Of a stretch of 38,893 bases of DNA, positions 1 to 33,158 are shown in pieces. The translations under genes and the position numbers were made by a program. The DNA is from Nanobdellati archaeon. Its GTDB lineage: Archaea > Nanobdellota > Nanobdellia > Woesearchaeales > JAADFO01. The notes under the pieces are model-generated. The model had not been told where the DNA came from, ran no database searches, and saw only the letters and a program-made list of their open reading frames with translations. Every line of letters starts with the position of its first letter. Position 1 is the stretch's first letter. Location: contig JAADFO010000026.1 in assembly GCA_013152815.1 (NCBI GenBank), positions 1 to 38,893 on the forward strand. Reading direction: 5' to 3'.

Positions 1-1244
1 CCGGTAATGTCCTCGACGTTGCTGGTCGGCTTGTTTTTTGTAGCTTCTGCAATGAGCCGATCGACATATTCCCTGGCCTCCTTTGCCTGTGTCGCGAAGC
101 GTCTGATCTGCTGGGACTTCCGGATCAGCTCTGCCCTCGTCTGGAGATAGCCTGCATCGATATATCCTTGATAATAGTCCTCGATAAGCGCCGGCGTGAT
201 GTAACGGCCGACGCTCCTGAAGGAAGGATCCTGTTCTCCGGTGAGCTTGACTGCCTGAAGGACCAGCTGCTGACCGCTCACCATGGCCGCATAGGCAAGC
301 TCTTCGCCGGCAGCGTATCTGCTGAACATCTGCAGGTCATCCTCGAAACGCCCGATGGCCCAGGCGATGGATTTCTCTGGTTCGAAACGGTCATCGTTAT
401 GCGGCGTGCACTTTGCCTGGGTGCGGCATTGTTCTCCCTGACAGTCGCAGGGGACGATGTTCTCGATGAAAGAGGGATGTGCAGTGATAAGGCTGTAGCA
501 GATGGGGATGATGCCTGCACAGCCAAGATCCTCATCGATATGGAGGGGATCGCCCCTGCTGCTTGCCGCGATAAGAGCCAGGATCTCTGAGCTGTTGGCA
601 AGGCCCCGGCTTTGTTTCTTCAACTGTTCGTCAACCGTTTCTTTGTAAAGGAGACTGACCTTGCGTATCATGTTGCCCTGGTCCTGCGGGATAAGGTATT
701 CATTGAGCGGCTGGCCGGAAAGGCCCATGCGGATGTCCTGTGACGATACGCCCATCACCCTGTCCTGGTCTGCATAGAGATGGAATGTTTTGGCAGGTAT
801 GGTGTCGGGAAAGGCCTGATCAATGTCTGCTTGGAGTCGGGGTGCAAGGTAGGCTGCCAGTGCCTGTCCGGGCGGAGAGCGGAGGCAGCTTGTCTTTTCC
901 CTGTTCCAGAGGTTGAGTCCTGCATAGGTGCCGCAGGGAGAGACAGAGAGGAAACCTCCGTTCCTGCCGAGGGGAAGCGCTGCCTCGAAGACCGCGTATT
1001 TTGCCGTGGAAGCAAGGGTGAACTGGAGCTCTTCACCGGCCTGATAGGTCCTGAAGAGGTCGGTTGATTTCTTGCCGATAGAGACATCGAGCCCTTGTTT
1101 CTCGTCGGTATATTTGTCGTTGAACAGGAAGATGGCTGCGGTGAAGATGAAGAGGACACCTATGAAGATGAAGACGATGAAAAACCGCGCCCGCTTTCCC
1201 AGGGGCCTTCTCTGTTTGTGTTGGTGTTTCATGGCGTTTGCCAT
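1..1244 (-). CDS. Membrane-anchored lytic-transglycosylase-like (SLT-fold) protein, probably catalytically dead; C-terminus runs off the window
   Basis: Manual minus-strand translation MANAMKHQHKQRRPLGKRARFFIVFIFIGVLFIFTAAIFLFNDK...NSSEILALIAASSRGDPLHIDEDLGCAGIIPICYSLI...NDDRFEPEKSIAWAIGRFEDDLQMF...DPSFRSVGRYITPALIEDYYQG... open to base 1. Colinear with the SLT domain of the CDS at 3696-5231. Not in the ORF track because it has no stop in the window. Confidence 0.75.
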   Translation of the reverse strand, partial: MANAMKHQHKQRRPLGKRARFFIVFIFIGVLFIFTAAIFLFNDKYTDEKQGLDVSIGKKSTDLFRTYQAGEELQFTLASTAKYAVFEAALPLGRNGGFLSVSPCGTYAGLNLWNREKTSCLRSPPGQALAAYLAPRLQADIDQAFPDTIPAKTFHLYADQDRVMGVSSQDIRMGLSGQPLNEYLIPQDQGNMIRKVSLLYKETVDEQLKKQSRGLANSSEILALIAASSRGDPLHIDEDLGCAGIIPICYSLITAHPSFIENIVPCDCQGEQCRTQAKCTPHNDDRFEPEKSIAWAIGRFEDDLQMFSRYAAGEELAYAAMVSGQQLVLQAVKLTGEQDPSFRSVGRYITPALIEDYYQGYIDAGYLQTRAELIRKSQQIRRFATQAKEAREYVDRLIAEATKNKPTSNVEDIT

Positions 1245-1260
1245 CTTGTTATCGTGGTAT

Positions 1261-1914
1261 TCATATCGGAAATGTGCCTGCGAAGAGCATCCAGGTGGTC
1301 AGTGTTATCTTTATGGGAGTGTGGTCAAGGCCAGGGAGATAGATGACAGCCACGGCCTTGTCGCCCTCTTGCGGAACATAGATGGACGGGCCGGTGGGAC
1401 TGCTGCCGACAGCATTGGATACAGACTCAGCATAGGTCTGGGCCTTGTCCCAGAAATAGGAATAGCCGAAGTTCGCATTGAGGGTGTCGCTGTATTCGAT
1501 ATCGAGGTTCCAGAACTGCCCATATCGCTGGAAGAACATCTCCTTGGCCTTCTCCCTGACGATGGCCAGGCGTTCGTCCTGATATTGGCCGAGGATGATG
1601 AGATCGGCCAGGGTGAGTGTCTTGTCGAAGACATCGGCACCTCCTGCGCCGGCAAAGGCCACGCCAGAACCCTGGTCTGCCGGTGTCCTGAGGAACGTGA
1701 GAAGCGCGGTGTCAGTATTGAGGGACAGAGCATCCTGGTTGATTTTCTGGTCTGGCCGGTCCTTGAAGACAGACAGCATGATGATGAAAAGAGCTGCTAC
1801 GAGGATGATGCCCAGCAAGGCAAAGGAATCAGGCAGGACCGTCGCCTGGGCACGCTTCCTGGTTCTCGTTCTTCCTCTTCGTTCGGGGATTTCTGTTCTC
1901 TTCATACGCATCAT
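1261..1914 (-). CDS. Single-TM envelope protein of unknown function, prepilin-like N-terminus (KRAQATVLPDSFALLGIILVAALFII)
   Basis: Intact 217-aa ORF; N-terminal basic stretch plus TM; colinear with neighbours. Confidence 0.75.
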   Translation of the reverse strand: MMRMKRTEIPERRGRTRTRKRAQATVLPDSFALLGIILVAALFIIMLSVFKDRPDQKINQDALSLNTDTALLTFLRTPADQGSGVAFAGAGGADVFDKTLTLADLIILGQYQDERLAIVREKAKEMFFQRYGQFWNLDIEYSDTLNANFGYSYFWDKAQTYAESVSNAVGSSPTGPSIYVPQEGDKAVAVIYLPGLDHTPIKITLTTWMLFAGTFPI

Positions 1915-1955
1915 CGGACTTGTTCTGTTATGTTTCGTGTTTCTGATGCCTATGG

Positions 1956-2501
1956 CTAACTGCTGGGCATCAGCACATCAAATTTCAGGTATCCTGGTAT
2001 GAGACGCTGCCGGTAGCGGTCCCAGATGAGGATGTTGCGGGTTTCCCGCACCCTTGCGCTCGAACCCTTTCCAGAGAAGCCCGCGAGGACATCCCATCGG
2101 TCGTACCATCGCCTGTTCAGATAGATGGGCGGAACATAGTCCTTGCGTTCTGGGGATGCCCTGGAACCGGCAGCGTGGAGCGTTATCTTTGCGGCGATGA
2201 TCTTGTTCGGGTGCGTGAAATTGATGGCCTGGGCCAGCCGTCGGTCGGTGAAGTATAAGGGGTCGACGATGCCAGGGTGGCTCGAAAGCCCGTCATCATA
2301 GGTGAAACCGTGGGGGGAGAAGTATATCCGGTTGATCAGTGTGGCAGCCTTTGCCGGCTGGTCGTGCAGGGAGATGTTGGCGAACCACACGATGGCAGCA
2401 TTCGCCAGCACAAAGACGATGACCAGGACCATCAGGTTGATGATCCACCAGGTGAATTCGAAAGCAACTCCTCGCCTGCCCAACCGAAGACGGCTTGCCA
2501 T
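1956..2501 (-). CDS. Single-TM envelope protein of unknown function (RRGVAFEFTWWIINLMVLVIVFVLANAAIVWF)
   Basis: 181-aa ORF abutting the next gene; N-terminal TM and predicted extracellular domain. Confidence 0.75.
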   Translation of the reverse strand: MASRLRLGRRGVAFEFTWWIINLMVLVIVFVLANAAIVWFANISLHDQPAKAATLINRIYFSPHGFTYDDGLSSHPGIVDPLYFTDRRLAQAINFTHPNKIIAAKITLHAAGSRASPERKDYVPPIYLNRRWYDRWDVLAGFSGKGSSARVRETRNILIWDRYRQRLIPGYLKFDVLMPSS

Positions 2502-3520
2502 CAGGGACCCACCTTCTTTGGGAAATAATCAAGGATTGCCGTGTCGATGGCATGGGCAAGGGGCCCGGGAGATGACGTGATGCTCAGTTGAGGATCCGCC
2601 CGGCTGTTGCCTATCTCGAGATAGACAGCGAGAGGGTTGCCTGCATAGAGTTCTGGTTGGTTCCCCGGCAGGACAGCGGTGCCTTGCAGCTGGGGGAAGG
2701 CGGCCTGTATCTCGTTGAGGATGCGACAGGCAAGATGTTTTGAAGGACGGAAGCGGCTGTCCCGCGGTTGCGGCACATAGGCGACCACGTCCTCAACAGC
2801 CGGATCTGCATTTGCACCCTGGTGGAGGGAGAGCATCACCAGGTTGCCCTGCATCTTCTGGTAACGCTCCTTATCTGTCGGCCGGGACTGCCTCGAACGG
2901 GTGGCAGAGGCAGGATACCCTGTTCCTGTACCGAGCAGCGCACGGGTGATGCTCCAGGTGAGCGCCCGTTCAGACGATGTCGCAAATCCCGGATCGATGA
3001 TCACCTTGATCTGCGCCAGCGGTGTTGATGAACGGCTGCCGCAATCCATCAGACGCAGAGAGACTTTAGGGTCATCCTTGTCGAACACGAGCAGGGTGTT
3101 CTCCTGCTTGGCCATGGCAAGGGAGGTGAGGACCCCCTTGTCGTGCAACGAGTAGGCAGTATCCTGGCCGTAGGGATAACGGAAGGGAAGGATGCTCTTG
3201 TCGTCCCTGATGGAAACGGTATCGTTGGAGAAGTTCAGCGTATATCGGTCGAGAGGCGGAGGGTAGTAGAGCTCAAGATTTCCAGGTGCAGCATAGACCG
3301 CAGAGGTAAGCAGACCGATGTCCCGCACATAGTATATCTTGTTGAAGTAGGTGGAGTCGCTGACACTTGCCATGTTGCCGTAGAGGACGACGACAACCAT
3401 CACCACGAGAACTGTCTGAAGAGCCATGATAAAGAGGTCTGTATCTCCGTCTGCGTCTTTCCGCTTCCATAGCGATGCAGCAGTTGCCCTATTTCCAGCA
3501 TGCCCCTCTTTTGACAGCAT
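2501..3520 (-). CDS. Membrane-anchored divergent N-acetylmuramoyl-L-alanine amidase (Amidase_3-like)
   Basis: Internal ATG chosen within ORF 2501-3694, just downstream of a TATTTAAAT box. N-terminal TM MALQTVLVVMVVVVLYG. Amidase_3-like string IKVIIDPGFATSSERALTWSITRALLGTG...TRS...NLVMLSLHQGAN...NPLAVYLEIGNSRADPQL...LAHAIDTAILDYF. Confidence 0.65.
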   Translation of the reverse strand: MLSKEGHAGNRATAASLWKRKDADGDTDLFIMALQTVLVVMVVVVLYGNMASVSDSTYFNKIYYVRDIGLLTSAVYAAPGNLELYYPPPLDRYTLNFSNDTVSIRDDKSILPFRYPYGQDTAYSLHDKGVLTSLAMAKQENTLLVFDKDDPKVSLRLMDCGSRSSTPLAQIKVIIDPGFATSSERALTWSITRALLGTGTGYPASATRSRQSRPTDKERYQKMQGNLVMLSLHQGANADPAVEDVVAYVPQPRDSRFRPSKHLACRILNEIQAAFPQLQGTAVLPGNQPELYAGNPLAVYLEIGNSRADPQLSITSSPGPLAHAIDTAILDYFPKKVGP

Positions 3521-3540
3521 GAAGAATTCACAGCAAAGAG

Positions 3541-3556
3541 CATTTAAATACTTTTG
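3541..3556 (-). promoter_or_regulatory. Putative TATA box for the amidase-like gene
   Basis: Minus strand AAAAGTATTTAAATGC about 25-30 nt upstream of the chosen ATG, suggesting a leaderless transcript. Confidence 0.5.
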
Positions 3557-3584
3557 GTCGGTGGCTGACGCTCCCAAGAACATG

Positions 3585-3685
3585 ACGAGAGGGAGAGAGA
3601 AAGAGCAGAAAGGGATGAAAAAAAAGAGGGGTGAGAGAAACCGGGGCAGGAAAGAAAAAGAAAAAAAGAAAAGAAACCGAACAGC
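3585..3685 (-). terminator. T-rich termination region after the transglycosylase gene
   Basis: Sense (minus) strand carries oligo-T runs (TTTCTTTTCTTTTTTTCTTTTTCTTTCC ... CTCTTTTTTTTCATCCC) just after the stop codon at 3696; plus strand is homopurine. Confidence 0.45.
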
Positions 3686-3695
3686 AGCAGACATG

Positions 3696-5231
3696 TCAGG
3701 TGATGGTGGTGCCTATCTTCTGTTCAGCGAGTTCCTTGTATGCCAGGACCCTGGGGACGTACTGCGCAGTCTCGGCTGGAAGGTATGCTGAGACCTCGGC
3801 GAAAGAGGGGTTGGCCTTTCCGGTCTTTCGGATCGCCTTGATGACAGCGCCGGGTCCTGCGTTATAGGCTGCGATGACGAAGGAAAGATAATCAGGTGAT
3901 GTGTGATATGCAGCGAGATATTGGGTGGCGAGCTTGTTGAGGTAATTGATGCCCGAACGGATGGCCCGGTCGGGATTGAAGCGGTCGTCGTTGGCTGGCC
4001 CGCAGCGGGGACTGATGCATGTCCCTGCAACACGGCTCGCCGGCTTCAGGCAGGAACAGGCCGTAAGGAATGATTCCCTGAAGCCGCCGATGACCCCATT
4101 CTCCTGGGAGTTCTCCTTTGCGGTCGCGTAGGTGAACTGCATAAGCCCCGCAGCGTCTGCAGAGGATACTGCATCGGTTCTCCCCGCGCTCTCAGTGAGG
4201 ATGTGCCCCAGGATAAGAGAGGGGGTGATGCCTTCATAGGAGGGGGCCTGTGTGTGCATCGCATCAAGGATGGTGGGGAGATATGCTGAGATCGCCTGAT
4301 CCATGGTCTTGCTGCTGCCGCTTCCGAGGATGACATTTCCTGCCAAGGGGATGGAGGAGAGCGTGTCGATCTCTTTCTTTCGCGCACCGAGAAAATCCTT
4401 GCTCGCTTCATCCTGGATAGCACCGTAGAGATAGACAAGACCCTGCTGATCCGGATCTGCATAGCGCATGTCCATCTTATCGAGATAGAGTCGCTGGCTG
4501 TTCCAGGTCCCGCATTCATCGCCGTAGATGACAAAGTAACCGTAGGGCGCCTTGTCCAGGACGGCATTGCCGCTCTTTACATCGACCTGACGATGGATGC
4601 CGCAGAATCTTGGCTCCTCCTTCGATCGATAATGGGAGATGAAGATGACCTCGCTGGAAAAGGTCCTGCAGTCGAGGATGTTGGTGTCCTGTTCAGACAG
4701 GGAATTCTCCTTGATGTCACCCTGGTAGAGACAAAGACATGCCTGGTCGCCGCATCGTAACGGCCGGATGATGGGACCGTCGGTATCGCCTTCCTGGACC
4801 AATGCCTGCCCATGGACCTGCAGCGAATCCCAGCCTCTGTCAAAACCGACGATCGCATATCCTGGTGGAAGCGAAAGCGTGGTGGTGGTCTCTTCATATT
4901 GTCGGGTGCTGCCGAGAAGGGCATCGATGTTCCTGGCGAGCCCCTCGAAATTGTTGGTGGCTGCCTGCTGTTCGGAGGAGGATCCTGCGCTCATCGCCTG
5001 GAGCACGTGGGGGACGAGGAAGACGATGAGCACTGCGCCCAGAAGAAGATAGAACGTCTGGTTGAGGAGATAGTGTCCTTCTGCTTTCTTGTCTCCCCTG
5101 TCTCTCCTGCCAGAAAAGGAGAACCTTCTTGAGGGCCGAGAACGACTCCAGGAAACCCGTTGCCCTGTCCGCGGCTGCGTCTGAGGATCGCTCAACTGTT
5201 TTCTGGACTCCTGCCGCGTCAGTAGGTGCAT
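3696..5231 (-). CDS. Membrane-anchored lytic transglycosylase (GH23/SLT) with N-terminal Cys-rich module
   Basis: SLT signatures HILTESAGRTDAVSSADAAGLMQFTYATAKE and VIAAYNAGPGAVIKAIRKTGKANPSFAEVSAYLPAET; N-terminal TM (LLNQTFYLLLGAVLIVFLVPHVL). Start MHLLTRQES overlaps the upstream stop. Confidence 0.88.
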   Translation of the reverse strand: MHLLTRQESRKQLSDPQTQPRTGQRVSWSRSRPSRRFSFSGRRDRGDKKAEGHYLLNQTFYLLLGAVLIVFLVPHVLQAMSAGSSSEQQAATNNFEGLARNIDALLGSTRQYEETTTTLSLPPGYAIVGFDRGWDSLQVHGQALVQEGDTDGPIIRPLRCGDQACLCLYQGDIKENSLSEQDTNILDCRTFSSEVIFISHYRSKEEPRFCGIHRQVDVKSGNAVLDKAPYGYFVIYGDECGTWNSQRLYLDKMDMRYADPDQQGLVYLYGAIQDEASKDFLGARKKEIDTLSSIPLAGNVILGSGSSKTMDQAISAYLPTILDAMHTQAPSYEGITPSLILGHILTESAGRTDAVSSADAAGLMQFTYATAKENSQENGVIGGFRESFLTACSCLKPASRVAGTCISPRCGPANDDRFNPDRAIRSGINYLNKLATQYLAAYHTSPDYLSFVIAAYNAGPGAVIKAIRKTGKANPSFAEVSAYLPAETAQYVPRVLAYKELAEQKIGTTIT

Positions 5232-6565
5232 GCATACTCCCCCTTGGCCCTTCGTTCCATCGCCAGGTTCCATTGGGGCGTGCCCATCTCAAAATGCCAT
5301 GGTTCCCCTGAAAACCTGACAAACCCCGCCTGGCACATCACCGATTCCACCCGGGCGGGATCCATGTTGTTGAGGTTCCTTCCTGCGCCGTCATATATGA
5401 CAATGTCGATGGCCCCGCCGCTCATGTGGGGGCAGGGCTGTTGATTGTCGACAGAACCAGGATAGCAAGCAAGGCTGCAATGATACGGCCGGCCATTATG
5501 GTGTTTGGTCTTATAACATTGGTAGAGATCGTTCTGGATGTTCCAGTCCCTGTACGCCTGGGTGATGACCATGCGGTAGTTGTGATGGGAGCTTGTGGGA
5601 TCTTGGAAGTCGGTGGAAAGTTTCTCGAGCGCGTCGCGGACCGGAGGGATGGCCTTGCATATCTTGCCGAAATCGGTATTGGTCTCGTCACAGGTGATGC
5701 CGGGAATGCCCTGGATGCTCACGAGCTGGCTCGTATCGATGGTATAGTGGGTCTGTGGCAGATAGGTTACCAGCGTAGCGATGCGGTCCCTGACGGAATC
5801 ATCCTCTATGGCGCCGTAGATGAATATCCTGGAATCGGTGCTCTCTGGATCGGGATTCTGATCACGGAGCCGCTCAAGATAGAGCTTTTGGGCATCCCAT
5901 TGACCGCATTTATCCCCATAGATGACAAAGTAGCCGTAGGGTCCTGTCTTGAGAGGTTCGTCGAGGCCGGAAAAGACCAGCTGCCTTCGTGTCCCACACA
6001 TGCGTGGCTTAGCATCCTGCTGATCATCAATCGGATCGACAGGCCGCTGATACCTGCTGATGAAGCTCACGTCGCCTGCAAAGGGTATGCACTGCACCAC
6101 ATGGACATCCCGCTGGGACAGATCGTTCTCTTTGATGTCGTCATCATAGAGGCAGATGCACGCTGCATCACCACAGGCGCTGGGTTTGAAAAAAGCTCCG
6201 CCGTTGCGATAACGGTCCGCCTGCGTATGGCTGCCAGAGATGCGTTTCCAGTTCTTGTCAAAGCCGACGATGGCATACCCCCCGCGGAGGCTCAGGGTCG
6301 TATCCCGATAGCCGTAGTCTGGTCCGTCGAGAAGCGCCTGTATGCTGTTGCCGAGACCGTTAAAATTGTCGATGGTTGCCTGGGTCTCTGCATCCTTGGA
6401 ACCCGGAGTCCCGAGAAAGCTCGTTATGATCGGCAGGATCATCAGGATGGCCAGACCCGCGAGCAGGAGTTGCAACACCTCAAACAGCGTTATCGCGCCC
6501 TTTTTTTCATTAGCTCGTCGTCGCACCAGTATCCCCCGTCCTGGCAGGTTCTCCGAGGATGTCAT
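5219..6565 (-). CDS. Membrane-anchored D-Ala-D-Ala carboxypeptidase-like protein (peptidase M15/VanY) with N-terminal Cys-rich module
   Basis: M15 signatures PHMSGGAIDIVIYDG and EPWHFE; N-terminal TM (KKGAITLFEVLQLLLAGLAILMILPII). The exact start is uncertain: ATG at 6565 or a downstream GTG near the upstream stop. Confidence 0.87.
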   Translation of the reverse strand: MTSSENLPGRGILVRRRANEKKGAITLFEVLQLLLAGLAILMILPIITSFLGTPGSKDAETQATIDNFNGLGNSIQALLDGPDYGYRDTTLSLRGGYAIVGFDKNWKRISGSHTQADRYRNGGAFFKPSACGDAACICLYDDDIKENDLSQRDVHVVQCIPFAGDVSFISRYQRPVDPIDDQQDAKPRMCGTRRQLVFSGLDEPLKTGPYGYFVIYGDKCGQWDAQKLYLERLRDQNPDPESTDSRIFIYGAIEDDSVRDRIATLVTYLPQTHYTIDTSQLVSIQGIPGITCDETNTDFGKICKAIPPVRDALEKLSTDFQDPTSSHHNYRMVITQAYRDWNIQNDLYQCYKTKHHNGRPYHCSLACYPGSVDNQQPCPHMSGGAIDIVIYDGAGRNLNNMDPARVESVMCQAGFVRFSGEPWHFEMGTPQWNLAMERRAKGEYACTY

Positions 6566-6788
6566 TTAGTGAATCCCTGCTGTGGTCAGATTGTTGGATG
6601 GTCGAATTGATCGTGGGAGCGAGTCCGCCCTGGATGATCTTCTCCCAGAAGAGCGAATAGGTGATGTAGAGCAGGATGCCCAGGACGACAAGGATGAGGA
6701 TCATGTCCCCCACCGTGCTGAAACCGAACATGGCCTTCTTCGGAAGACTCTTCCTTGTATGTTTTGATCGAAATCTCATGACATTCAA
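6510..6788 (-). CDS. Small single-TM protein
   Basis: 92-aa ORF MNVMRFRSKHTRKSLPKKAMFGFSTVGDMILILVVLGILLYITYSLFW...; overlaps neighbours in operon style. Confidence 0.7.
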   Translation of the reverse strand: MNVMRFRSKHTRKSLPKKAMFGFSTVGDMILILVVLGILLYITYSLFWEKIIQGGLAPTINSTIQQSDHSRDSLNDILGEPARTGDTGATTS

Positions 6789-7063
6789 CCTCCTTTTTTA
6801 TCCGGAGCAGAGATGCAGCAGATATTTTCTCCTGTGCAGCCTATCTTTCCGAAACGTAATGGCCCGCACTCTGATGGTGCCTTACAGCTGGCGCCTTTGA
6901 ACTTGCTTGGGCAGTCATCGATGCTTGATGAGAAGAGCGATGACTTGTTGACGATGATGGCGATGGTCACGATAAGGACGATAAGGACGATGGCCGCGAT
7001 CACGATGGTGTTGAGGCTGATGCCCTGTGCCTGTTTTTGTTGTCTCAACAGCTGTTTTCTCAT
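6785..7063 (-). CDS. Pilin-like Cys-rich small membrane protein
   Basis: MRKQLLRQQKQAQGISLNTIVIAAIVLIVLIVTIAIIV...CPSKFKGASCKAPSECGPLRFGKIGCTGENICCISAPDKKGG; start overlaps the upstream stop as TAATG. Confidence 0.78.
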   Translation of the reverse strand: MRKQLLRQQKQAQGISLNTIVIAAIVLIVLIVTIAIIVNKSSLFSSSIDDCPSKFKGASCKAPSECGPLRFGKIGCTGENICCISAPDKKGG

Positions 7064-7707
7064 TAGCTCACCCCGGTGATGATGCAGGTGTCGCTTGGCC
7101 GCAGGGTATGATCTCCGGCGATGCGCTTGCTGCTGTCCATTTTGATAAGGAGATGATAGTTGTGTTTCAGGAACCCCCATCCTGGCTGATAGATCTTCAG
7201 GGAGATCTTGGAATGGTCATCGGGATCTGCGAACATCGGGCGGAAAAGCGCGGGATCTTCCTCCATCTTGTCACCGAAGACCTCTTGGGGGGTGCTCCAG
7301 TCAGATTCCTTTACGAGGAAGAGCGGGTTGCGATAGGATACCTTGATGTGCATCCAGGGAATCTTTCCGTCGAGAGGGTCATTGAGGTCCTCTGAGAAGG
7401 AAAGCAGGATGGTGTCCTCAGATATCTTGTCCTTGGTCGGCTGGTAGGCAAAATCCTTGACCGTGCAATCCCGCACCGGAAGCTCTGACGGTTCCCTGTG
7501 CAGAAGACAGACATTTTTAGGGAGGCAGGGTCCGCTTAGGTCATCCTGGACTGTATCTGCGAGCCCCACGAGATTAAGGCCCCCTTTCCAAAGGGGGACC
7601 ATATAGGTGGAGATGATGAAATACAGCACCCCCGCAACAATCAATAGGAGAATAAACTTGATGGCAACTCCATAACCCTTCAAGTCTCCTTCTCCTCTTT
7701 TGTTCAT
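7063..7707 (-). CDS. Single-TM envelope protein of unknown function
   Basis: 214-aa ORF MNKRGEGDLKGYGVAIKFILLLIVAGVLYFIIS...; Cys-containing ectodomain. Confidence 0.75.
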   Translation of the reverse strand: MNKRGEGDLKGYGVAIKFILLLIVAGVLYFIISTYMVPLWKGGLNLVGLADTVQDDLSGPCLPKNVCLLHREPSELPVRDCTVKDFAYQPTKDKISEDTILLSFSEDLNDPLDGKIPWMHIKVSYRNPLFLVKESDWSTPQEVFGDKMEEDPALFRPMFADPDDHSKISLKIYQPGWGFLKHNYHLLIKMDSSKRIAGDHTLRPSDTCIITGVS

Positions 7708-7755
7708 CTTTCATGACCCGCTTATCTTTCTGGCGTTTTCTATCGTTTTTGTCTC

Positions 7756-7920
7756 TTAGTTGCCGAATTGAAACACTCGGACGATGTGATCCATAAGGCT
7801 GACCAGGTCTTTCCTGGTGAGCACGAGGAGACCGATGATAGCAGCAAGAAACCCCAAAGCGACCATCCACTTCACAACAGTGGACTCGAGGAATGCTTTC
7901 CTTCCTTTTATGCGTTTCAT
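7756..7920 (-). CDS. 54-aa single-TM peptide (missed by the ORF track)
   Basis: Manual translation MKRIKGRKAFLESTVVKWMVALGFLAAIIGLLVLTRKDLVSLMDHIVRVFQFGN*; fills the gap in the operon. Confidence 0.65.
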   Translation of the reverse strand: MKRIKGRKAFLESTVVKWMVALGFLAAIIGLLVLTRKDLVSLMDHIVRVFQFGN

Positions 7921-8086
7921 GTCGGTTCACTTCGCATGGTCTGTTCAGGCAACATCCTGCCCGAGGACGGGACAGGGCCACTGAAGGCCAAATCATCTAT
8001 CCCGACGCAACAATAAAAAGCTATCGGTGGTTTTAAGCTTGGCCGGCCCCGCTTTTTCCTCGCGACACATATCAGGAATTGCCAAT

Positions 8087-9022
8087 TCAGGACACATCCT
8101 CTGCTGTGAAAGACTGCTTGACAGGGAACTCCCGGCATCCCAGCTCCTTCAGCTTTGCCTTGTCATACTCGATGATGGTGAAGAAGGTGAAATATTCCTT
8201 GTCAGGCCTGCTCCGATCTATGAAATGGTCATAGAGCTGATCAGCAGCAAAGGCCACGCCGCCTGCCACCAATAATGCCCAGCCGATGGGATTTGTCAGG
8301 CTGCCGATGATGAGGACGGCTGCACCTGTTCCGCCCACGACCGATGTTACCACAATGGTCCCCTTGTTGCGGGCTGCCCAGGCAATGGCCTCCTTCATGA
8401 ATTGGATGCCCACTGCATGGATCATGACAAAGGCATATTTTTTTGAGGTGTCAAGCCCTTTGCCTCCTGCAAGAGAAGGTTCCTGGACGAGGGCTTCGCC
8501 GAACTGCTCTGCTGCCTTGGGCGAGACATGACCTTCGCAATAGTCGAGATAGGAAAGGTCACTCTTGCCGACATGCCTGGTCGCCAGATACTCCTGCAAT
8601 CCGTTGATTCTCGTCTTTCCTGGCGGGTCGAAGGACACCACCGAATCGACGGCACAGTATATCCCATCATCCTTGAACAGGGGTTCCTTCCCTCGCAGAT
8701 AATGGTCACAGAGAGGATAATAATAGTCCTCAGCGAGGATCTTCTTGACCTGCTCTGGATCGGTTTGGGTGATGGTGTCGTAGCGGGTGGGGCAGTTGAT
8801 GTTCTCGAAGAGATCGTTGCCAGAGAACTGGCCGAGGAGATGCAGTTCCACGCTCTTTTTGCAACCCAGGGAAGAGGTGATGGAATCTGCCTGCTGGCCG
8901 ACCCTGTTGACGATGGTGACGAGCAGGATGAGAAGCGTGAACAGCCCTATGATGAACCAGACCGTGATCGTCTGCATGGCTTTTCTGCCCATCCTTGGTG
9001 CTGTTGGTATCGTCGATGTCAT
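8087..9022 (-). CDS. Cys-containing envelope protein with N-terminal TM and internal Gly/Ala-rich hydrophobic hairpin
   Basis: 311-aa ORF; TM ITVWFIIGLFTLLILLVTIV and hairpin TIVVTSVVGGTGAAVLIIGSLTNPIGWALLVAGGVAFAADQLY. Confidence 0.75.
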   Translation of the reverse strand: MTSTIPTAPRMGRKAMQTITVWFIIGLFTLLILLVTIVNRVGQQADSITSSLGCKKSVELHLLGQFSGNDLFENINCPTRYDTITQTDPEQVKKILAEDYYYPLCDHYLRGKEPLFKDDGIYCAVDSVVSFDPPGKTRINGLQEYLATRHVGKSDLSYLDYCEGHVSPKAAEQFGEALVQEPSLAGGKGLDTSKKYAFVMIHAVGIQFMKEAIAWAARNKGTIVVTSVVGGTGAAVLIIGSLTNPIGWALLVAGGVAFAADQLYDHFIDRSRPDKEYFTFFTIIEYDKAKLKELGCREFPVKQSFTAEDVS

Positions 9023-9053
9023 GGTGTCTTTGGTCCTGCAGCCAGAAGCTTGT

Positions 9054-9962
9054 TCATCGATCTTTCATAGGTGATGGCGCGTTGACGAAGAGGGAGCAGA
9101 AGGGCATCATCATCTTGTCGCCACCCACGATGATCTCCACCGGCTTGGTCGGGGAGAACTCGGGAGGCACGAGGTAAATCCCGCCGATGGCGTGACATTC
9201 TTCGCAATCAGTGAAGGGATAGGTGAGAGGAAACGAGGAAGCCAGGGAACCCCAGAAATCCTCCCAAGGCCATGGCCCGGCATCTGTGATGGAGAAATAT
9301 CTGCTGAGTTTTGTCTGAAGTTTCACCATCTGCAGGATGATCTGCGAGCCATCCTTTACCTCCTGCTCTGTTCCCTTACGGGCATTGCTGAAGTCTGCCT
9401 TTTTCGGATCCTGCTTGTAGAGGTACTGCCAGTAGCTGTGGTCCTTATCGAACGGGCCGTTATGGCCTGTGAGATAGCGTTCCAGGCCAGCTATCTCGGG
9501 TTTCTCCATGGAACGCAGGTAGGGAAGCAGTGATTTATCGAACCAGATAGTGTCGCAATAGAAGCAGATGGGCCTGTCCTTAAGGTTCCAGTCAGAGAAC
9601 GGATCATACTTTCCTGCGCCCACCGTATCCCAGCACTGCGCCATGGCATCGGCGACGAGCTTGTTGGCCTTGTCTGTATCGATTGCCGTGCGCTCTTTGT
9701 TGAGAACATTGTTGGTTCCCTTGGTATCGAGGATAACCTCTCCCGGCTTGCAGTCGACCGAATAGAACGTATTCGACCCCAGCGGATTGACGGATTTCCC
9801 GAGATAGGTCAAAAAGATGCCTCGTTTGCATGCTGCCTTATCGCTTGCCCGGGAGATGGTGTTCAGGCTCTTCCCGAGGATCGGCACATAGATGGCGAAA
9901 CTCAGCAGGAGTATGACCAAGAGGACAGTGAACGTCGATAGGGCCTTCTTCCCCCGGATCAT
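9054..9962 (-). CDS. Cys-containing envelope protein, divergent paralog of 8087-9022
   Basis: Start MIRGKKALSTFTVLLVILLLSFAIYVPIL at 9962, ATGA-coupled to the small ORF 9959-10081; Cys and GL.(R/E)YL motifs shared with the neighbour. Confidence 0.75.
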   Translation of the reverse strand: MIRGKKALSTFTVLLVILLLSFAIYVPILGKSLNTISRASDKAACKRGIFLTYLGKSVNPLGSNTFYSVDCKPGEVILDTKGTNNVLNKERTAIDTDKANKLVADAMAQCWDTVGAGKYDPFSDWNLKDRPICFYCDTIWFDKSLLPYLRSMEKPEIAGLERYLTGHNGPFDKDHSYWQYLYKQDPKKADFSNARKGTEQEVKDGSQIILQMVKLQTKLSRYFSITDAGPWPWEDFWGSLASSFPLTYPFTDCEECHAIGGIYLVPPEFSPTKPVEIIVGGDKMMMPFCSLFVNAPSPMKDR

Positions 9963-10081
9963 GGTGCCGACCCCAGAAATATCTTTTTGACGATGATATA
10001 GACGAAGACAAAGAAGGTTATGATAAGGACAAGATAGATGATGGTCTCCAGACCCGGCACTTGCCCTTTTTTTCTGGTCAT
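9959..10081 (-). CDS. 40-aa single-TM prepilin-like peptide (missed by the ORF track)
   Basis: Manual translation MTRKKGQVPGLETIIYLVLIITFFVFVYIIVKKIFLGSAP*; ATGA overlap with the next gene; TATA-like TTTAAAT at about 10127-10135. Confidence 0.65.
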   Translation of the reverse strand: MTRKKGQVPGLETIIYLVLIITFFVFVYIIVKKIFLGSAP

Positions 10082-10143
10082 GGTTGCTCAGCCTCCAAGA
10101 AGCACAACCCATCTGAGGAGTATCCTAATTTAAATGCTGCGAT

Positions 10144-10245
10144 TTATGGGGCGGATCTTACAGGAAAACAGGCAAGGAGGGGGATGAAGATGAGCAGCAG
10201 CGCCAGGAAAAGGATGATGATACTGGAAAAGCGGGCATTGGTCAA
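10144..10245 (-). CDS. Possible 33-aa single-TM peptide with TTG start
   Basis: (M)TNARFSSIIILFLALLLIFIPLLACFPVRSAP*; TTG start overlaps the TGA of the upstream ORF. Confidence 0.35.
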   Translation of the reverse strand: MTNARFSSIIILFLALLLIFIPLLACFPVRSAP

Positions 10246-10485
10246 CTCTTGATGCCGAGAGAGATGCAGCATTTCTGGTCAGAGAGCTGACAGTCGGTGT
10301 TGGGAACGATGGGACCCTGGCATGAACCGGTCACACAGCTCCCCCCTTTGGTCGTGCAGGAAACAACATCCTCAGAGAAGATATTGATCTTTCCTGAAAA
10401 GATGGCGACAAGCACCACGAGCACGATAAGAGCGATGGCAGCAACGATGATGGTCGTGATGGATGGAAATGTCGGCTTTTTTCAT
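10242..10485 (-). pseudogene. Frameshifted pilin-like Cys-rich protein gene (or sequencing/assembly indel)
   Basis: Conserved ATG context at 10485 opens the wrong frame. Deleting one A from the AAAAAA run gives MKKPTFPSITTIIVAAIALIVLVVLVAIFSGKINIFSEDVVSCTTKGGSCVTGSCQGPIVPNTDCQLSDQKCCISLGIKS. Confidence 0.55.
10372..10462 (-). repeat. 91-bp perfect direct repeat, copy 1 (encodes the pilin-like TM segment)
   Basis: tcagagaagatattgatctttcctgaaaagatggcgacaagcaccacgagcacgataagagcgatggcagcaacgatgatggtcgtgatgg, identical to 10696-10786. Confidence 0.93.
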
Positions 10486-10526
10486 GGGGGCATCATCATA
10501 GGAGCATCGGTTAGCACCACAGAGCA

Positions 10527-10799
10527 TCATGACCTGCAACAGTCCTCGAAGGAGGAACAATCTATCCAACCGCCTGAGGGGGGAAGGATTGTGGGGCCGC
10601 AGGAACTGTCTCCGTTGCTTTGCTTAGCCTTGCATATCCCGCCCTGAGCACCACAGACATTGTCCTGTGTGCCTTCGGTGGTTGAGCTGTATCCTTCAGA
10701 GAAGATATTGATCTTTCCTGAAAAGATGGCGACAAGCACCACGAGCACGATAAGAGCGATGGCAGCAACGATGATGGTCGTGATGGCAGCTCGTTTCAT
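10527..10799 (-). CDS. Pilin-like Cys-rich small membrane protein
   Basis: MKRAAITTIIVAAIALIVLVVLVAIFSGKINIFSEGYSSTTEGTQDNVCGAQGGICKAKQSNGDSSCGPTILPPSGGWIDCSSFEDCCRS. Confidence 0.78.
   Translation of the reverse strand: MKRAAITTIIVAAIALIVLVVLVAIFSGKINIFSEGYSSTTEGTQDNVCGAQGGICKAKQSNGDSSCGPTILPPSGGWIDCSSFEDCCRS
10696..10786 (-). repeat. 91-bp perfect direct repeat, copy 2
   Basis: Identical to 10372-10462. Confidence 0.93.
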
Positions 10800-10892
10800 G
10801 GTGGCATCAGGATTCAGGCACGTCTCGATTCAAATGGACATCATATCGCCGAGGACAACAGATGAAAAGAAAAAAGGAAAAGAGGTGCGATG

Positions 10893-11135
10893 CTATGCCT
10901 TGACACAGCAGACCTGATTGGAATCTGCAGGGCAGGACCAGGCATCATACTGTATCGAATAGGTGCTGTCGCAGGCATCCAGGCATTGGCCTCCTTTGTT
11001 CTGACAATCTGCTGTCTGCTCGGAGAAACTGCCTATCCTTCCCAGGAAGATCACTGAAAGGACCACCAGGACAAGGAGGGCTATGGCTGCAATGATAATG
11101 ACGTTCATAGAAATTCCCTGGGCTTTCTTAAGCAT
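10893..11135 (-). CDS. Pilin-like Cys-rich small membrane protein
   Basis: MLKKAQGISMNVIIIAAIALLVLVVLSVIFLGRIGSFSEQTADCQNKGGQCLDACDSTYSIQYDAWSCPADSNQVCCVKA; RBS-like GAGGTGAT upstream. Confidence 0.8.
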   Translation of the reverse strand: MLKKAQGISMNVIIIAAIALLVLVVLSVIFLGRIGSFSEQTADCQNKGGQCLDACDSTYSIQYDAWSCPADSNQVCCVKA

Positions 11136-11171
11136 TGAATATCACCTCGGTATGATGATTTCTTGCATGAA

Positions 11172-11184
11172 CTCATATATAAAG
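11172..11184 (-). promoter_or_regulatory. TATA box of the minus-strand envelope cluster
   Basis: Minus strand CTTTATATATGAG upstream of the first gene. Confidence 0.6.
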
Positions 11185-19278: not shown

Positions 19279-19515
19279 TCAGCGTCGTTTCTTCGCCCTT
19301 TTCTTCGGCTTCTTTCTTGGCGCCACTCTTCTTTCGATCTTCCGTTCTTCCGCCTCGATCTTCAGCTCTTCTCTTTCGAGCCGGGTCACGATCTTCGTCA
19401 TGTTGATATCGATGCGGGCGATCCTCCGCTCCAGCATGACCAAAATTCTGAGGCTGTACACTATCGCCGCCAATGTACCGATGATAATGCTTAAGATAAC
19501 TGCCAGGATATCCAT
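19279..19515 (-). CDS. Small membrane protein with basic coiled-coil tail
   Basis: MDILAVILSIIIGTLAAIVYSLRILVMLERRIARIDINMTKIVTRLEREELKIEAEERKIERRVAPRKKPKKRAKKRR. Confidence 0.6.
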   Translation of the reverse strand: MDILAVILSIIIGTLAAIVYSLRILVMLERRIARIDINMTKIVTRLEREELKIEAEERKIERRVAPRKKPKKRAKKRR

Positions 19516-19666
19516 TTTGAGACGCACCTCCCTCTTTTTTCCGTTGGAACAACAATCATGGGTTTGTTCGGTCTGTTGCATGGCTGCAGCGAACAGACTC
19601 ATTCTTTTAAAAGAAGGCTCATATAAAAATCTTTCTCTTTTTGTCTTCAGTCGGTTAAGACACAGA

Positions 19667-19686
19667 CACCTTTGTTTCCTGTGGAG
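19667..19686 (-). promoter_or_regulatory. ORB-like origin recognition box 1
   Basis: Minus strand CTCCACAGGAAACAAAGGTG, matching ORB 2 in inverted orientation. Confidence 0.72.
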
Positions 19687-20603
19687 GAGAGGTAGAGGGG
19701 TGGGGGTTGGTCTTGTCTGCCTCTTCTGTTGGTTCGGCAGAAAGGTGTGCTCGGAGCAGAGCTAAAAAAGGAGAGGGCTAAAAGGAGATAGCTGAAAAAA
19801 GAGCGGACACAGAGTAGGCACCGGACGATAGAACGCACAGCATGTGAATCGACGCAGTCTCTGGTTATTTATTATCAATTATTATCAATTATTCATTTAT
19901 TATCATTTATTACCGTGTTATTTTATGTTCATCATTTATGTTCAACAGATCATAAAACAGTCACATCATTATTTCATATTATTGTTTTTTTCATATTATT
20001 GTTTTATATTATTAATATTAATTATTAATATCCCTTTTTCACAGCATTAACATCACCACATCACATATGTTATAAACTATATATTGTGAGTCACATATTA
20101 TGAGACATACCACATAGATTACACATCACATCTTATATATTATACTATATACATCATACTATATATATTATACTATACATTACATATATTATATATTATA
20201 TATTATATATTATTATTTACAATATAGAAAGAAAAAGAAGAGAGGAAAAAAGAAGAAAGAAAGACAAAAAAGAGAAGAAAAAGAAGAAAAAGAAGGACTA
20301 AAAGAAAAAAGAGAGAACAGGAAAACAAGAAAACCGAAAGAGAAAAAGAAAAGAACGAACAAGAAAGAAGGACACCAATGATACGAGATGTCTGATGTCT
20401 GATACCAAAATACCTGAATGGAACCAAAAGGAAAAAAACAGATGAAAAAATGAACAGAAGAAACAAAAGGTGAGACAGAAAAGAAAAAGACGTGAAGACG
20501 AGGGAAACAGGACACGACCAATACAACAAACCGGTGATGCAGCGAACAGCAGGAAAGACACATTCAAAAAAAAAACAGAGAGAGACCACCACCCACCCAC
20601 CTA

Positions 20604-20628
20604 TTCCACAGGAAACCAAGGGGTGGGG
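20604..20628 (+). promoter_or_regulatory. ORB-like origin recognition box 2 with G-string
   Basis: TTCCACAGGAAACCAAGGGGTGGGG. Confidence 0.75.
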
Positions 20629-20683
20629 CTTTTTTGGTCAAATGGAAAAATATATATATGCTTGAGAAAACCGGACAACCCCC

Positions 20684-21886
20684 ATGGGTGAACTGAAGAC
20701 ATTTTTTGAGACCTTCTTGACAAAGAAATCCCTTTTTATCAACAAGAAAGCCATACAGGCCCACTTCATGCCCGGTGAAGTTCTCCACAGGGACGAGCAG
20801 ATCCAGGTCATAGCAAACACGCTGGCCCCTGCTCTCCGCATGGAGAAGCCGTCAAACCTTTTCATCTACGGAAAGACCGGGTCAGGAAAGACACTCTGTG
20901 TCAAGCACGTCATCCAGCAGATGAAAGAGGTGGCTGCGCAGAAGGAATTGCCCCTCCAGATAATCTATCTTAACTGCAAGCTCAAAAAAGTGGCAGACAC
21001 AGAGTATCGGATGGTCGCGCAACTGGCAAGGGAGACCGGAAAAGAGATACCGCCGACAGGGCTTCCTACAGATGAGGTGTATGGTATCTTCTTCAATGCC
21101 ATAGACCAGAAGAGACAGGCGGTACTTATCGTCCTTGATGAGATCGACCAGCTGGTAAAAAAAGCCGGGGACGAGCTTCTTTACAATTTTACCAGGATAA
21201 ACGGAGACCTGAAAAATGCTCACATATCTCTTGTCGGTATTTCCAATGATCTGGTATTCATCGATCTTCTGGACCCACGCATCAAGAGTTCGCTTTCAGA
21301 GGAGGAGCTGGTGTTTCCTTCCTACAACGCATTGCAGATAAAGAGCATCCTCAAGAAGAGAGCGAAGATCGCTTTCAAGGAAGGGACACTTCAACCGGGC
21401 GTTATAGAGAAGTGCGCAGCCTATGCGGCAAGAGAGCATGGTGACGCCCGCAGGGCACTGGAACTCCTTCGGGTTGCCGGTGAATTGGCAGAGCGGCAGG
21501 AACAGGAGACCGTTTCCATAGCAAACCTCGACAAGGCAGAGGAAAAGATAGAGAAAGACAGGGTGAATGAGCTTGTGGAGACCCAGCCAAAGCACCACAA
21601 GGCCGTCCTCTATGCGAGCCTTGCTCTGCCCAAGCAAAGCGGCCAGCCGGTCTATACCGGGGACGTCTATGAGCTCTATCGGGATATCTGCAAGCGCGTC
21701 GGTCTGCGTCCGCTGACCCAACGCCGCGTGAGCGACGTCCTTTCCGAACTGGACATGACAGGCATCCTCAACGCAAAGGTCATCTCCAAGGGACGCTACG
21801 GGCGGACGAGAGAGATCAGCCCAGGAATCCCCCGTTCGATGAAGAACAAGACGCTTTCCTTTTTACAGGACGCACTGAACCTCTGA
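20684..21886 (+). CDS. cdc6: Orc1/Cdc6 replication initiator
   Basis: Walker A FIYGKTGSGKT, Walker B AVLIVLDEIDQL, sensor SLVGISNDLVF, AREHGDARRALELLRVAGELA, C-terminal winged helix. Confidence 0.97.
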   Translation: MGELKTFFETFLTKKSLFINKKAIQAHFMPGEVLHRDEQIQVIANTLAPALRMEKPSNLFIYGKTGSGKTLCVKHVIQQMKEVAAQKELPLQIIYLNCKLKKVADTEYRMVAQLARETGKEIPPTGLPTDEVYGIFFNAIDQKRQAVLIVLDEIDQLVKKAGDELLYNFTRINGDLKNAHISLVGISNDLVFIDLLDPRIKSSLSEEELVFPSYNALQIKSILKKRAKIAFKEGTLQPGVIEKCAAYAAREHGDARRALELLRVAGELAERQEQETVSIANLDKAEEKIEKDRVNELVETQPKHHKAVLYASLALPKQSGQPVYTGDVYELYRDICKRVGLRPLTQRRVSDVLSELDMTGILNAKVISKGRYGRTREISPGIPRSMKNKTLSFLQDALNL

Positions 21887-28995: not shown

Positions 28996-31900
28996 CTAGC
29001 CGAAAAGGTCATGGAAGAACATCAGCAGGTTCTTCCAGATGCGGGTGAAGAATGCCCCCATGGTCCCGATGATGCCTTCTTTCTTCAACGGGTATTCCAC
29101 ATTGATGTCTTTCTGGTTGATGAGGTATTTGCAGCCCTGGAGCGCCTCGTCGATAAGCTGGCCGGCGGTGCGGAACCGGTTCTCTCCCACTGCCTGTTTT
29201 GCTCGGGAGAGCAGTTCATTGAGCTCGAGGCATTCAGGATTGCTCGCGAAGAGATCCCGGGTGAGCGCTATCCGGGTGTTGAGCTGGCTCCTGTTCTCTT
29301 CTCCCAGCTCCAGGCTGCTCACCAGTATCTTGAGCCGGTCGGTGTATTTCGGTCGGGTGACCCGTCCTTCGATGGTGACCTCGTAGTTTCCGTAATCACG
29401 ATGGGACCCGATGGTCAGGTTGAGGTCCCTCCGTTGGCCTGGTTTCAGTTCGCCGATATTCTCTGGAAAGAATGAGAAGTTGAGGGTCTGGTTGCCGGCC
29501 ACAGCGATGAACGAGATATTATGGAATGTCTTGTTGTCGTGGTTCTCGATGTAGAGCGGTACCTGCATGGTCTGGTTCTCGAAGATGGTGATGACTCCTG
29601 GATTGAGGATCTCCAGCGAGAAATATTTTGTCCTGTTGGATGTCTGGTTGACGAGCTTGGTCTTGGTGATGGTGATGTAGGATGCCCCTCCCGAACTCCC
29701 CCCTCCTGTCGAGCTGGTGGATGAGGTGCTCTCGGGGATGTCTATGAACGTGAGACTGATGTTATTGCTGTAGACGGTCCTGTTCCATGGATCGGTCGCG
29801 CTGAACCGCACCTCTGCTGTCTTTGGACCGTCTGCATAGATGCGGGCGATGTTCGTGCCGGCCTCTATGGCGACCGATATGCTTGCAGGAGCCGAATAAT
29901 TGTAGGTGAGGTTGTCGTCTCCGTCAAGGTCTGAGAAATAATCGTCCAGGTCGACCCAGAGAGTGGTAGTCTTCTCGTTGGCCTCGAAATCATCGATGAT
30001 ATAGTGGATGTTGGCCTGGCTGATGTTCGGGCTCTGCGAGGAATCGTTGGTCGACAGCAAGACCTTGAACTGGAGATATTCCTGTTTTGCTGCGCGGACG
30101 AGGTATCTGCTGTCGTTGTTTTGGGCTCTTGGGGAGATGTTCCATGAAGAGAAGCTGCTCCCGTCTGCAGATGTCCGGACATAAAAGGTGATGTTGGTTC
30201 CGTTGGGCATCCGGCTGCTGACGTCGATCTCGGTGATGTTGAGGTATCCTGCGTCTTCCCTGAGATCGAACGTGGTCGTGTTATACGTGCCTGACATGGC
30301 GAAGCTTCCGTTGTAGAAGAGCCGGAGCCGTGACCCTGACTGTTCGGTGCTGTTGAAATCACCACCTGCCCAGCTGCTGACGTTGACGATGCCGAAACGA
30401 GGGGGCCTGTTGAGGTTGGTGATGTTGACGGTCCATGACGTGCTCGTGTTGTGGACCCCGTCGCTTACCAGGACCGACATGTTCTTTATCCCTGCGGAGG
30501 CGAAGTCGGGTGTATAATTGAACTGGTACTGGTTGCTGATGTTCGTCCCGTCGACGCTCCATATATAGGTCAACGGCTGGCTCTCCGGATCCTGGGCGGT
30601 CACGTTGAAGAGCTGGCTGCTGTTCTCCTGGAGGGTGACTGTCTGTCCGGCGGGGTAGCGGGCATTGATGGTCGGGGGGTTGTTGTTGAACACGATCCGG
30701 AACCGGATGATCTTGGTGATGGTGGTGGTGCCGTCGCTGAGGTTGAAGAGGATGGAGTGGTTGCCGATATCTGCGCTTTGCGGCGTGAAATTGACGAGGA
30801 CAGTGGAATAGTTCACCGGGGTCAGGTTGAAGAGGCTGCTGTTGGTTCCGAACGCCAGACTGTTGTTCTCCTCGTCGCTTCCGCTGATGTACCAGGTGAA
30901 ATTGCTGTTCTCGAAGGTCGTCTGGTTGGTGATGTTCGGATTGAAGTAGGGCGGGTCGTTCACCTCGATGACGGTGAGCATGAAGATGGCCTCATCGGTC
31001 CCGTTCCAACCGTCGCTGATGTTGATGCGCAGGGTATGGTTGCCAACGTTTGTATAGTCTGGGGTGAAGTTGATGATCGCCTGCTCATGCCCCCGAGGTT
31101 CGATGGTGAAGAAGGAGGCGTTCAGCGAGAAGCCGACCGAATCATTGTCCGTGTCGTTGGCCCGGAAGACATGGACATAGTTCTGGTCTTCCGTTGCGGT
31201 GAGGTTGGTGATGTTCAGGAGCAGGGGGCGGGAGTTGTTGAGGATGCTGAAGGTGAACACTTCGATGTCCGAGAGAAGGCCGTCGCTCACGTTGATGATG
31301 ATGCTGTGGTTGCCCAGGTCGGCCTGGCCTGGCGTGAAGTTGATCAGCGCGCTGGTCGAGGAGACAGCAGTCAGGTTGAACATCGTCGTGTTGGTGGTGA
31401 AACTCAGGACGTCGTCGTCAGCATCGCTGGCGGTGATGAGCAAGGTGAACAGGTTGTCTGCCCGCCACTCCTGGTCTCCGATGCTCGCCAGGACCGGGGG
31501 ATTGTTGATGTCTGCTATGGAGAAGATGATGTCGGTATAGTTCGTCGCCCCCCAGCTGTCGTTCGCGGTTATCCTGACCGTGTGGTTTCCCACCATGCTG
31601 TTGTCCGGGGTGAACGAGATCCGGCCGGCGGTGGCATTGAACGTGCTGATGTTGAACAGCGTGCTGTTGTCGGTGAAGGCCAGGGAATCATTGTCGCTGT
31701 CCTGGGCCGTCACATCCATGGTGAACGCCGAGTTCTCGGTGAGGTTCTGGGTGCTGTAGCTGGTGATCGTGGGGGCATGGTTCCTCCGGATGGTGAGGTT
31801 CATGATGCTCGACACGTTGAACTCTCCGTCTCCGACGGTTATGTTGATGGAATAGGTGCCGTTCTGGCCCTCTGCAGGGGTGAAGCTGATGAGGCCCGAT

Positions 31901-33051: not shown

Positions 33052-33158
33052 GCTTGTCTGTGACCTCTTCCTTTCTTTTCTACACGTCGGGGGTTTTAAT
33101 GCTTTTCTGTGGTTTCCCTGGCATCCCTGCTTCCGCTGTCGCCGGTTGAAGGTTCCTT

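Follow-up and report, generated by a model that had tools for sequence, protein, structure and literature searches.

Several described systems resemble, in part, the locus reported here. Giant extracellular proteins with an SLT domain were assigned by Castelle et al. to a family of Pacearchaeota and Woesearchaeota (fam00969 / Module 98), and their role in attachment to bacterial walls or degradation of them was proposed (PMC8204110). Vampiristic Woesearchaeota with murein transglycosylases, for which predation was suggested, were reported by Vigneron et al. (PMC9723730), and archaeal peptidoglycan hydrolases kill bacteria (PMC12352652). Among pilus systems, the Kil/Tad pili of Myxococcus xanthus have interchangeable minor-pilin tips needed for the killing of prey (PMC12075869), the modular pilins PilB and PilC of Streptococcus sanguinis bear foreign domains grafted by cut and paste (reviewed in PMC10191384), and archaeal type IV pili were surveyed by their ATPase, TadC-type platform and class III signal peptides (PMC4858521). 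The locus in question is a minus-strand run of 15 genes, g01 to g15, at positions 3-11135 of the archaeal contig JAADFO010000026.1 (C26), all 38,893 bp of which constitute the window analyzed here. Overlaps between the genes are frequent, and the products have a nearly universal layout, namely a short basic leader with G or A as its last residue, a single long hydrophobic helix and an extracellular domain. The run is best explained, with a probability that we put at roughly 0.6, by a dedicated type IV filament-like machine shared by Woesearchaeales and related members of their class, whose modular pilins would present murein hydrolases to bacterial walls. An earlier note on this DNA had proposed an envelope apparatus of about 15 short, often overlapping genes, with murein-hydrolase-like proteins on prepilin-like anchors, and this proposal has withstood the checks of synteny and composition described below.

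The giant SLT family occurs in the same lineages as our locus and likewise comprises large extracellular proteins with an SLT domain; the orthologues of g01 are likely to be fam00969 itself. However, 'pil', 'type IV' and 'secretion system' are absent from the main text of PMC8204110, and what is added here to fam00969 is a pilin-like stem, a gene cluster, swapped hydrolases and a motor. The vampiristic archaea were described, as here, as having enzymes aimed at bacterial murein, but 'pili' is absent from the main text of PMC9723730; in PMC12352652, both 'pili' and 'pilus' are absent from the main text, and Woesearchaeota are mentioned only via PMC9723730. Kil/Tad pili are similar in that several minor pilins bear large variable domains and that prey bacteria are contacted, and their short helix-only Flp adapter pilins (the 59-aa KilO; aa, amino acids) recall g10, as far as descriptions can be compared. 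They belong, however, to a bacterial Tad system combined with a needleless type III secretion system, and 'peptidoglycan' is absent from the text of PMC12075869. PilB and PilC are bacterial and carry adhesive domains, whereas the domains considered here are archaeal murein hydrolases. The census of PMC4858521 covers archaeal type IV pilus systems, yet DPANN, Woesearchaeota and transglycosylase are absent from its text. No paper joining Woesearchaeota or Woesearchaeales, pilin or pili, and transglycosylase or peptidoglycan was found in a search outside which most subscription journals, preprints and supplements lie. The word 'undescribed', used in the earlier note, would therefore fit only in part: the pilin context, module swapping and motor of what appears to be a type IV filament-like system with modular pilins are new relative to the literature searched, while the giant SLT proteins (PMC8204110) and the transglycosylases with the predation proposal (PMC9723730) had been published.

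The organization of the run is conserved in relatives. At least four of six core families were found together in 25 loci, which represent 21 family-level groups; this is a count of loci with a match and not of a random sample, as the first loci were chosen by a g05 match. The consensus order, based on profiles from the fetched loci (designated by L numbers), is (mini-pilins)-g12-g11-g10-mini-pilins-ADAP-g04-g03-g02-stem/giant, where ADAP is an N-terminal domain of about 240 aa common to g05 and g06 (42% identity). With the single g05 protein as query, 45 of 147 genomes of the order had matches; the g11 profile matched 128 of the 147, which are an even draw of the order. In a sample of the phylum, the ADAP profile matched 242 of 380 genomes, which is an upper bound, since many of the matches were weak or covered the N-terminal part only. 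Genes of the relatives were taken from a simple longest-ORF caller (ORF, open reading frame), so some starts and single-locus absences will be wrong. An RPA-type OB-fold gene stands next to the cluster in several loci and, judging by sequence resemblance, in L099 and L093 as well.

Such recurrence bears on the possibility that bacterial or phage DNA was mis-binned with an archaeal contig. The SLT domain does match phage endolysin and tail families; clear bacterial or phage relatives are, however, limited to the hydrolase domains, the cluster recurs in many independent genomes, in several beside the archaeal RPA-type gene, and no break in GC content was seen along the contig between 11 kb and pcna. 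We regard mis-binning as hardly credible, and a chimeric or phage origin of the run was ruled out by synteny and composition. The source metagenome-assembled genome (MAG) is archaeal, with a size of 1.49 Mb, completeness of 90.8% and contamination of 0.74%, and archaeal replication genes including pcna lie on the same contig as the gene run. The large subunit of PolD (DP2) of this Woesearchaeota host is at most 53-56% identical to those of named Candidatus Woesearchaeota MAGs.

The pilin-like character of the proteins exceeds what chance would give. A prepilin-like N-terminus was present in 175 of 241 core-family proteins versus 73 of 431 other ORFs from the same loci (Fisher p 3e-47), under an ad hoc rule and with a control set in which spurious ORFs are included, so that a contrast is more readily obtained. 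Leaders of the KKG, KKA or KRG type, with cleavage predicted from sequence, precede a transmembrane (TM) helix in most core families, while in the g03 family only 7 of 23 members fit the rule. In most loci examined, a short prepilin-like ORF of about 44-59 aa comes right after g11, in a search open to several frames and starts and made without a shuffled control. The AlphaFold model of ADAP (pLDDT 82, fair) consists of a long N-terminal helix followed by a beta-sheet; the stem model reached a modest pLDDT of 71. By analogy with known pili, the larger proteins would be minor pilins, and g10 would have a shaft or adapter role.

The same anatomy could be read differently, as a set of signal-anchored surface hydrolases and adhesins that do not polymerize, in which the KKG-type leaders serve only to hold the proteins in the membrane, while the enzymes break down debris of bacteria or kill competitors from the cell surface. 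Lengths above 1000 aa are unusual for pilins, the models lack a structural match to pilins, and archaeal wall hydrolases that kill bacteria are known (PMC12352652). On the other hand, the short helix-only prepilin-like gene after g11 is hard to fit as an anchored enzyme, the multi-gene context is strongly ordered, and in relatives an ATPase and a platform-like gene lie directly upstream of the cluster. Surface enzymes of this kind seem to us rather unlikely.

The last of these points concerns the motor. Immediately upstream of g11 and on its strand, L098 and L099 encode a T2SSE ATPase (760 and 782 aa) along with a multi-TM protein (725 and 727 aa). A multi-TM protein is also encoded upstream of the cluster in L097 and in L093, in the latter separated from it by other genes and itself following the end of a presumed ATPase ORF. 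The earlier note, having seen no ATPase or prepilin peptidase, had supposed that they might lie elsewhere, and both indeed occur in the same genome. A pair of ATPase (766 aa; T2SSE 4.6e-15) and multi-TM protein (761 aa) is located on contig C27; this ATPase shares 58% identity with those of L098 and L099, and its multi-TM neighbor, whose length across genomes is 712-761 aa, is 41-48% identical to its four counterparts (L093, L097-L099). We tentatively consider the multi-TM protein a putative platform. A prepilin peptidase (PF01478, Peptidase_A24) is encoded on C73 and was present in 30 of 31 genomes checked.

Hydrolase domains of the run differ in how well their active sites are preserved. The SLT domain of g05 is canonical, as had been claimed, with a Pfam match to PF01464 (E 6.4e-20), the motifs ES, GLMQ and AYNAGPG, and the catalytic Glu. 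This Glu is present in 21 of 22 aligned SLT domains, the exception being g01, which has Ser (SSRGDP); its domain looks inactive, in agreement with the SLT-like pseudoenzyme proposed before. A tree asking whether the SLT domain of g05 was copied from that of g01 had two starred branches, and a scan of the genome contigs with the SLT protein gave no match. For g06, the claim of a canonical M15 carboxypeptidase stands as to the motifs, HMSGGAID and EPWH, which fit the Zn-site patterns HxxGxAxD and ExWH and are intact in all four M15 domains compared; its Pfam M15 match (E 6.1e-5) lies just under the curated cut-off. The Amidase_3-like assignment of g04 was borne out by a match of its family profile to the amidase 4rn7 (1e-6) and by four orthologues (L043, L066, L070, L071) that score over the Pfam cut-off. 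In the window, g04 lacks one of the H/E/H zinc ligands that, with a catalytic Glu, characterize Amidase_3 amidases: Phe stands in place of the first His (DPGF for DPGH), and the domain is probably inactive; in the orthologues of L066 and L070, the expected DPGHG, SIH and E are all present.

Across loci, the hydrolase domains appear to be interchangeable modules on constant pilin-like stems. Seven kinds of wall hydrolase were found on cluster proteins: SLT, M23, Amidase_2, VanY/M15, NlpC/P60, Amidase_3 and muramidase. A Pfam scan of 28 proteins of the stem/giant set gave SLT in 18, M23 in 6, Amidase_2 in 2, VanY in 2 and NlpC/P60 in 1, with single cases of TPM, polysaccharide deacetylase and NAGPA. 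This set is impure, as it includes L078 and multi-TM SLT proteins of L045, L046 and L050 that have no stem, as well as a neighboring M15 protein in which a stem was not seen (L069:10279-14223), the source of the deacetylase, NAGPA and one VanY match. The latter, of 1314 aa, adjoins its cluster and combines polysaccharide deacetylase, VanY and NAGPA domains. ADAP carries SLT and M15 domains in the window, M15 in L071 and a GDSL-lipase-like domain (below cut-off) in L076; as both g05 and g06 contain it, the two may be seen as one scaffold with two catalytic heads. Hydrolases are also carried by L091 and L092, the latter encoding a g04-type protein of 1479 aa (L092:11407-15846) with N-acetylmuramidase and Amidase_2 domains.

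These chemistries span the glycan strand, the amide bond and the stem peptide, which makes bacterial murein the likely substrate. A pilus for uptake of DNA or nutrients, whose hydrolases would release murein fragments, nucleotides or DNA of bacteria without predation, would have an anatomy identical to that of the best explanation; DNA uptake is common among type IV filaments, and biosynthesis is reduced in DPANN genomes. The range of chemistries nevertheless seems to exceed the needs of uptake, and we find such a pilus quite unlikely. It might also be supposed that the enzymes act on the envelope of the archaeon itself, either remodelling it for passage of the filament, as VirB1-like transglycosylases do in bacterial secretion systems, or cutting a murein-like polymer of its own. 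Murein, however, is not known from Archaea, and the diversity and swapping of the modules suggest a foreign, varying target, so that a role in the own envelope is improbable.

In the filament-like machine that we favor, the peptidase of C73 would trim the KKG and KKA leaders, and the divergent T2SSE-type ATPase, together with the large platform-like membrane protein of C27, would assemble the subunits. Candidates for shaft or adapter pilins would be the 6-Cys mini-pilins and g10, the latter being also a candidate major pilin. The minor modular pilins would comprise g11, g12, the ADAP proteins, g04, g03, g02 and g01, with a probable location at the tip or the base. At cell contact, the hydrolase domains on ADAP, g04 and g01 would cut bacterial murein locally, so as to breach or grip the wall in episymbiosis, predation, or capture of nutrients or DNA.

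Several observations weigh against this machine. Foldseek searches with the ADAP and stem models gave no significant match in the PDB. Prepilin processing, filament assembly, tip location, the role of the platform, enzyme activity and the target are steps that we infer. The T2SSF signal of the multi-TM protein is weak (E 3.4e-4, below cut-off, and E 0.009), and its hhalign comparison with the ordinary platform proteins of the genome gave a probability of 15-32%, with two separate halves matched. Because the pilin genes and the ATPase pair of the window's genome lie on different contigs, their link is drawn by analogy with the relatives. One or two ordinary type IV pilus motors are also present in most genomes, and those of C44 and C33 are a possible alternative cognate motor, although it is the C27 pair whose counterparts adjoin the cluster in relatives. 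The presence of ordinary T2SSF did not track that of g11 across genomes, and for this reason their co-occurrence was not used in support of a motor. Finally, a Pfam scan of selected proteins of L094, L095 and L100 revealed no hydrolase domain, and in L093 and L097-L099, which come from further families of the class, the short ADAP, g04 and stem proteins could hardly accommodate one (these were not scanned), with an SLT-matching protein near the cluster in L097. As g01 and g04 of the window also look inactive, the emphasis of the earlier note on wall cleavage had to be revised; wall cutting seems to be an added module of a more general pilus-like system.

A wider claim is that of a class-wide, undescribed archaeal pilus with its own divergent motor and interchangeable murein-hydrolase tips, through which DPANN archaea would breach or anchor in bacterial walls, a cross-domain weapon or attachment organelle; we hold it as tentative, somewhat short of an even chance. 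Cultures are lacking for most DPANN lineages, whose partners are unknown. The cluster, which is conserved, seems linked to a motor and includes bacterial-wall hydrolases, could serve as a genomic marker of archaea that possibly live attached to bacteria or at their expense; it offers a concrete list of parts for expression and a reading for previously unexplained lineage-specific proteins of Woesearchaeota.

Table 1. Genes of the run in the window, with predicted features of their products
Gene	Positions	Strand	Description
g01	3..1244	-	KRA+TM anchor; stem domain and degenerate SLT domain; open at contig end
g02	1261..1905	-	Pilin-like protein (KRAQATVLPDSFALLGIILVAALF); homologues equally placed in L042, L047, L059, L071
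g03	1956..2501	-	Pilin-like protein (RRG|VAFEFTWWIINLMVLVIVFVL); 23 members found by profile, equally placed
g04	2501..3520	-	Pilin-like stem and Amidase_3-type domain, DPGF for DPGH
g05	3696..5231	-	ADAP pilin-like domain (~240 aa) and SLT lytic transglycosylase with catalytic Glu
g06	5219..6565	-	ADAP pilin-like domain (KKG|AITLFEVLQLLLAGLAIL) and M15 peptidase domain
g07	6510..6788	-	Small single-TM protein; unique to the window among loci read
g08	6785..7063	-	Cys-rich mini-pilin (KQAQGISLNTIVIAAIVLIVL), 6-Cys mini-pilin family
g09	7063..7707	-	Single-TM anchored protein; homologue absent from loci read
g10	7756..7920	-	54-aa prepilin-like protein, helix only
g11	8087..9022	-	Core pilin-like protein; internal Gly-rich hydrophobic hairpin
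g12	9054..9962	-	g11 paralogue; profiles match reciprocally
g13	10242..10481	-	Cys-rich mini-pilin; frame broken at A6 tract near start
g14	10527..10799	-	Cys-rich mini-pilin
g15	10893..11135	-	Cys-rich mini-pilin (KKA|QGISMNVIIIAAIALLVLVVL); run starts here

Some genes of the run call for comment. The contig ends within g01, so that the shortness of this gene reflects truncation; it is an orthologue of the giant SLT pilin-like protein, whose stem is kept across 22 aligned sequences and whose SLT-bearing members are mostly 430-1250 aa long. Comparison with orthologues places the start of g04 probably near 3520, upstream of its first assignment. Gly-zipper matches, below cut-off, were obtained for the g11 orthologue of L047. 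The several Cys-rich pilin-like proteins noticed earlier are four 6-Cys mini-pilins, g08, g13, g14 and g15. Of these, g13 (region 10242-10490) is a near-copy of g14 with a frame break right after a potential ATG, for which an assembly error, a pseudogene or a phase-variable tract are alternative explanations.

Other observations concern large proteins in the vicinity of such clusters. In L090 (1928-9631), three giant/stem-type proteins of 522, 615 and 929 aa are encoded close together, with a Pfam SLT match only in the 929-aa one. Giant extracellular-type proteins (1000-4000 aa), some very Cys-rich, lie upstream of the cluster in several relatives (L053-L057). The genome of the window encodes a second SLT protein (G000:C42:5033-5626; L078:4724-5791) of 355 aa, unlinked to the run and without a pilin-like stem. 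Outside the run, two overlapping, very large minus-strand genes of the window (28996-33162 and 33159-35894) encode proteins of 1388 and 911 aa with extracellular-type repeats, which are probably adhesins. The stretch 19500-20700 has a GC content of 37-46% versus about 55%, and a T-rich ORF within it adjoins an Orc1/Cdc6-like gene; this stretch is a possible replication origin.

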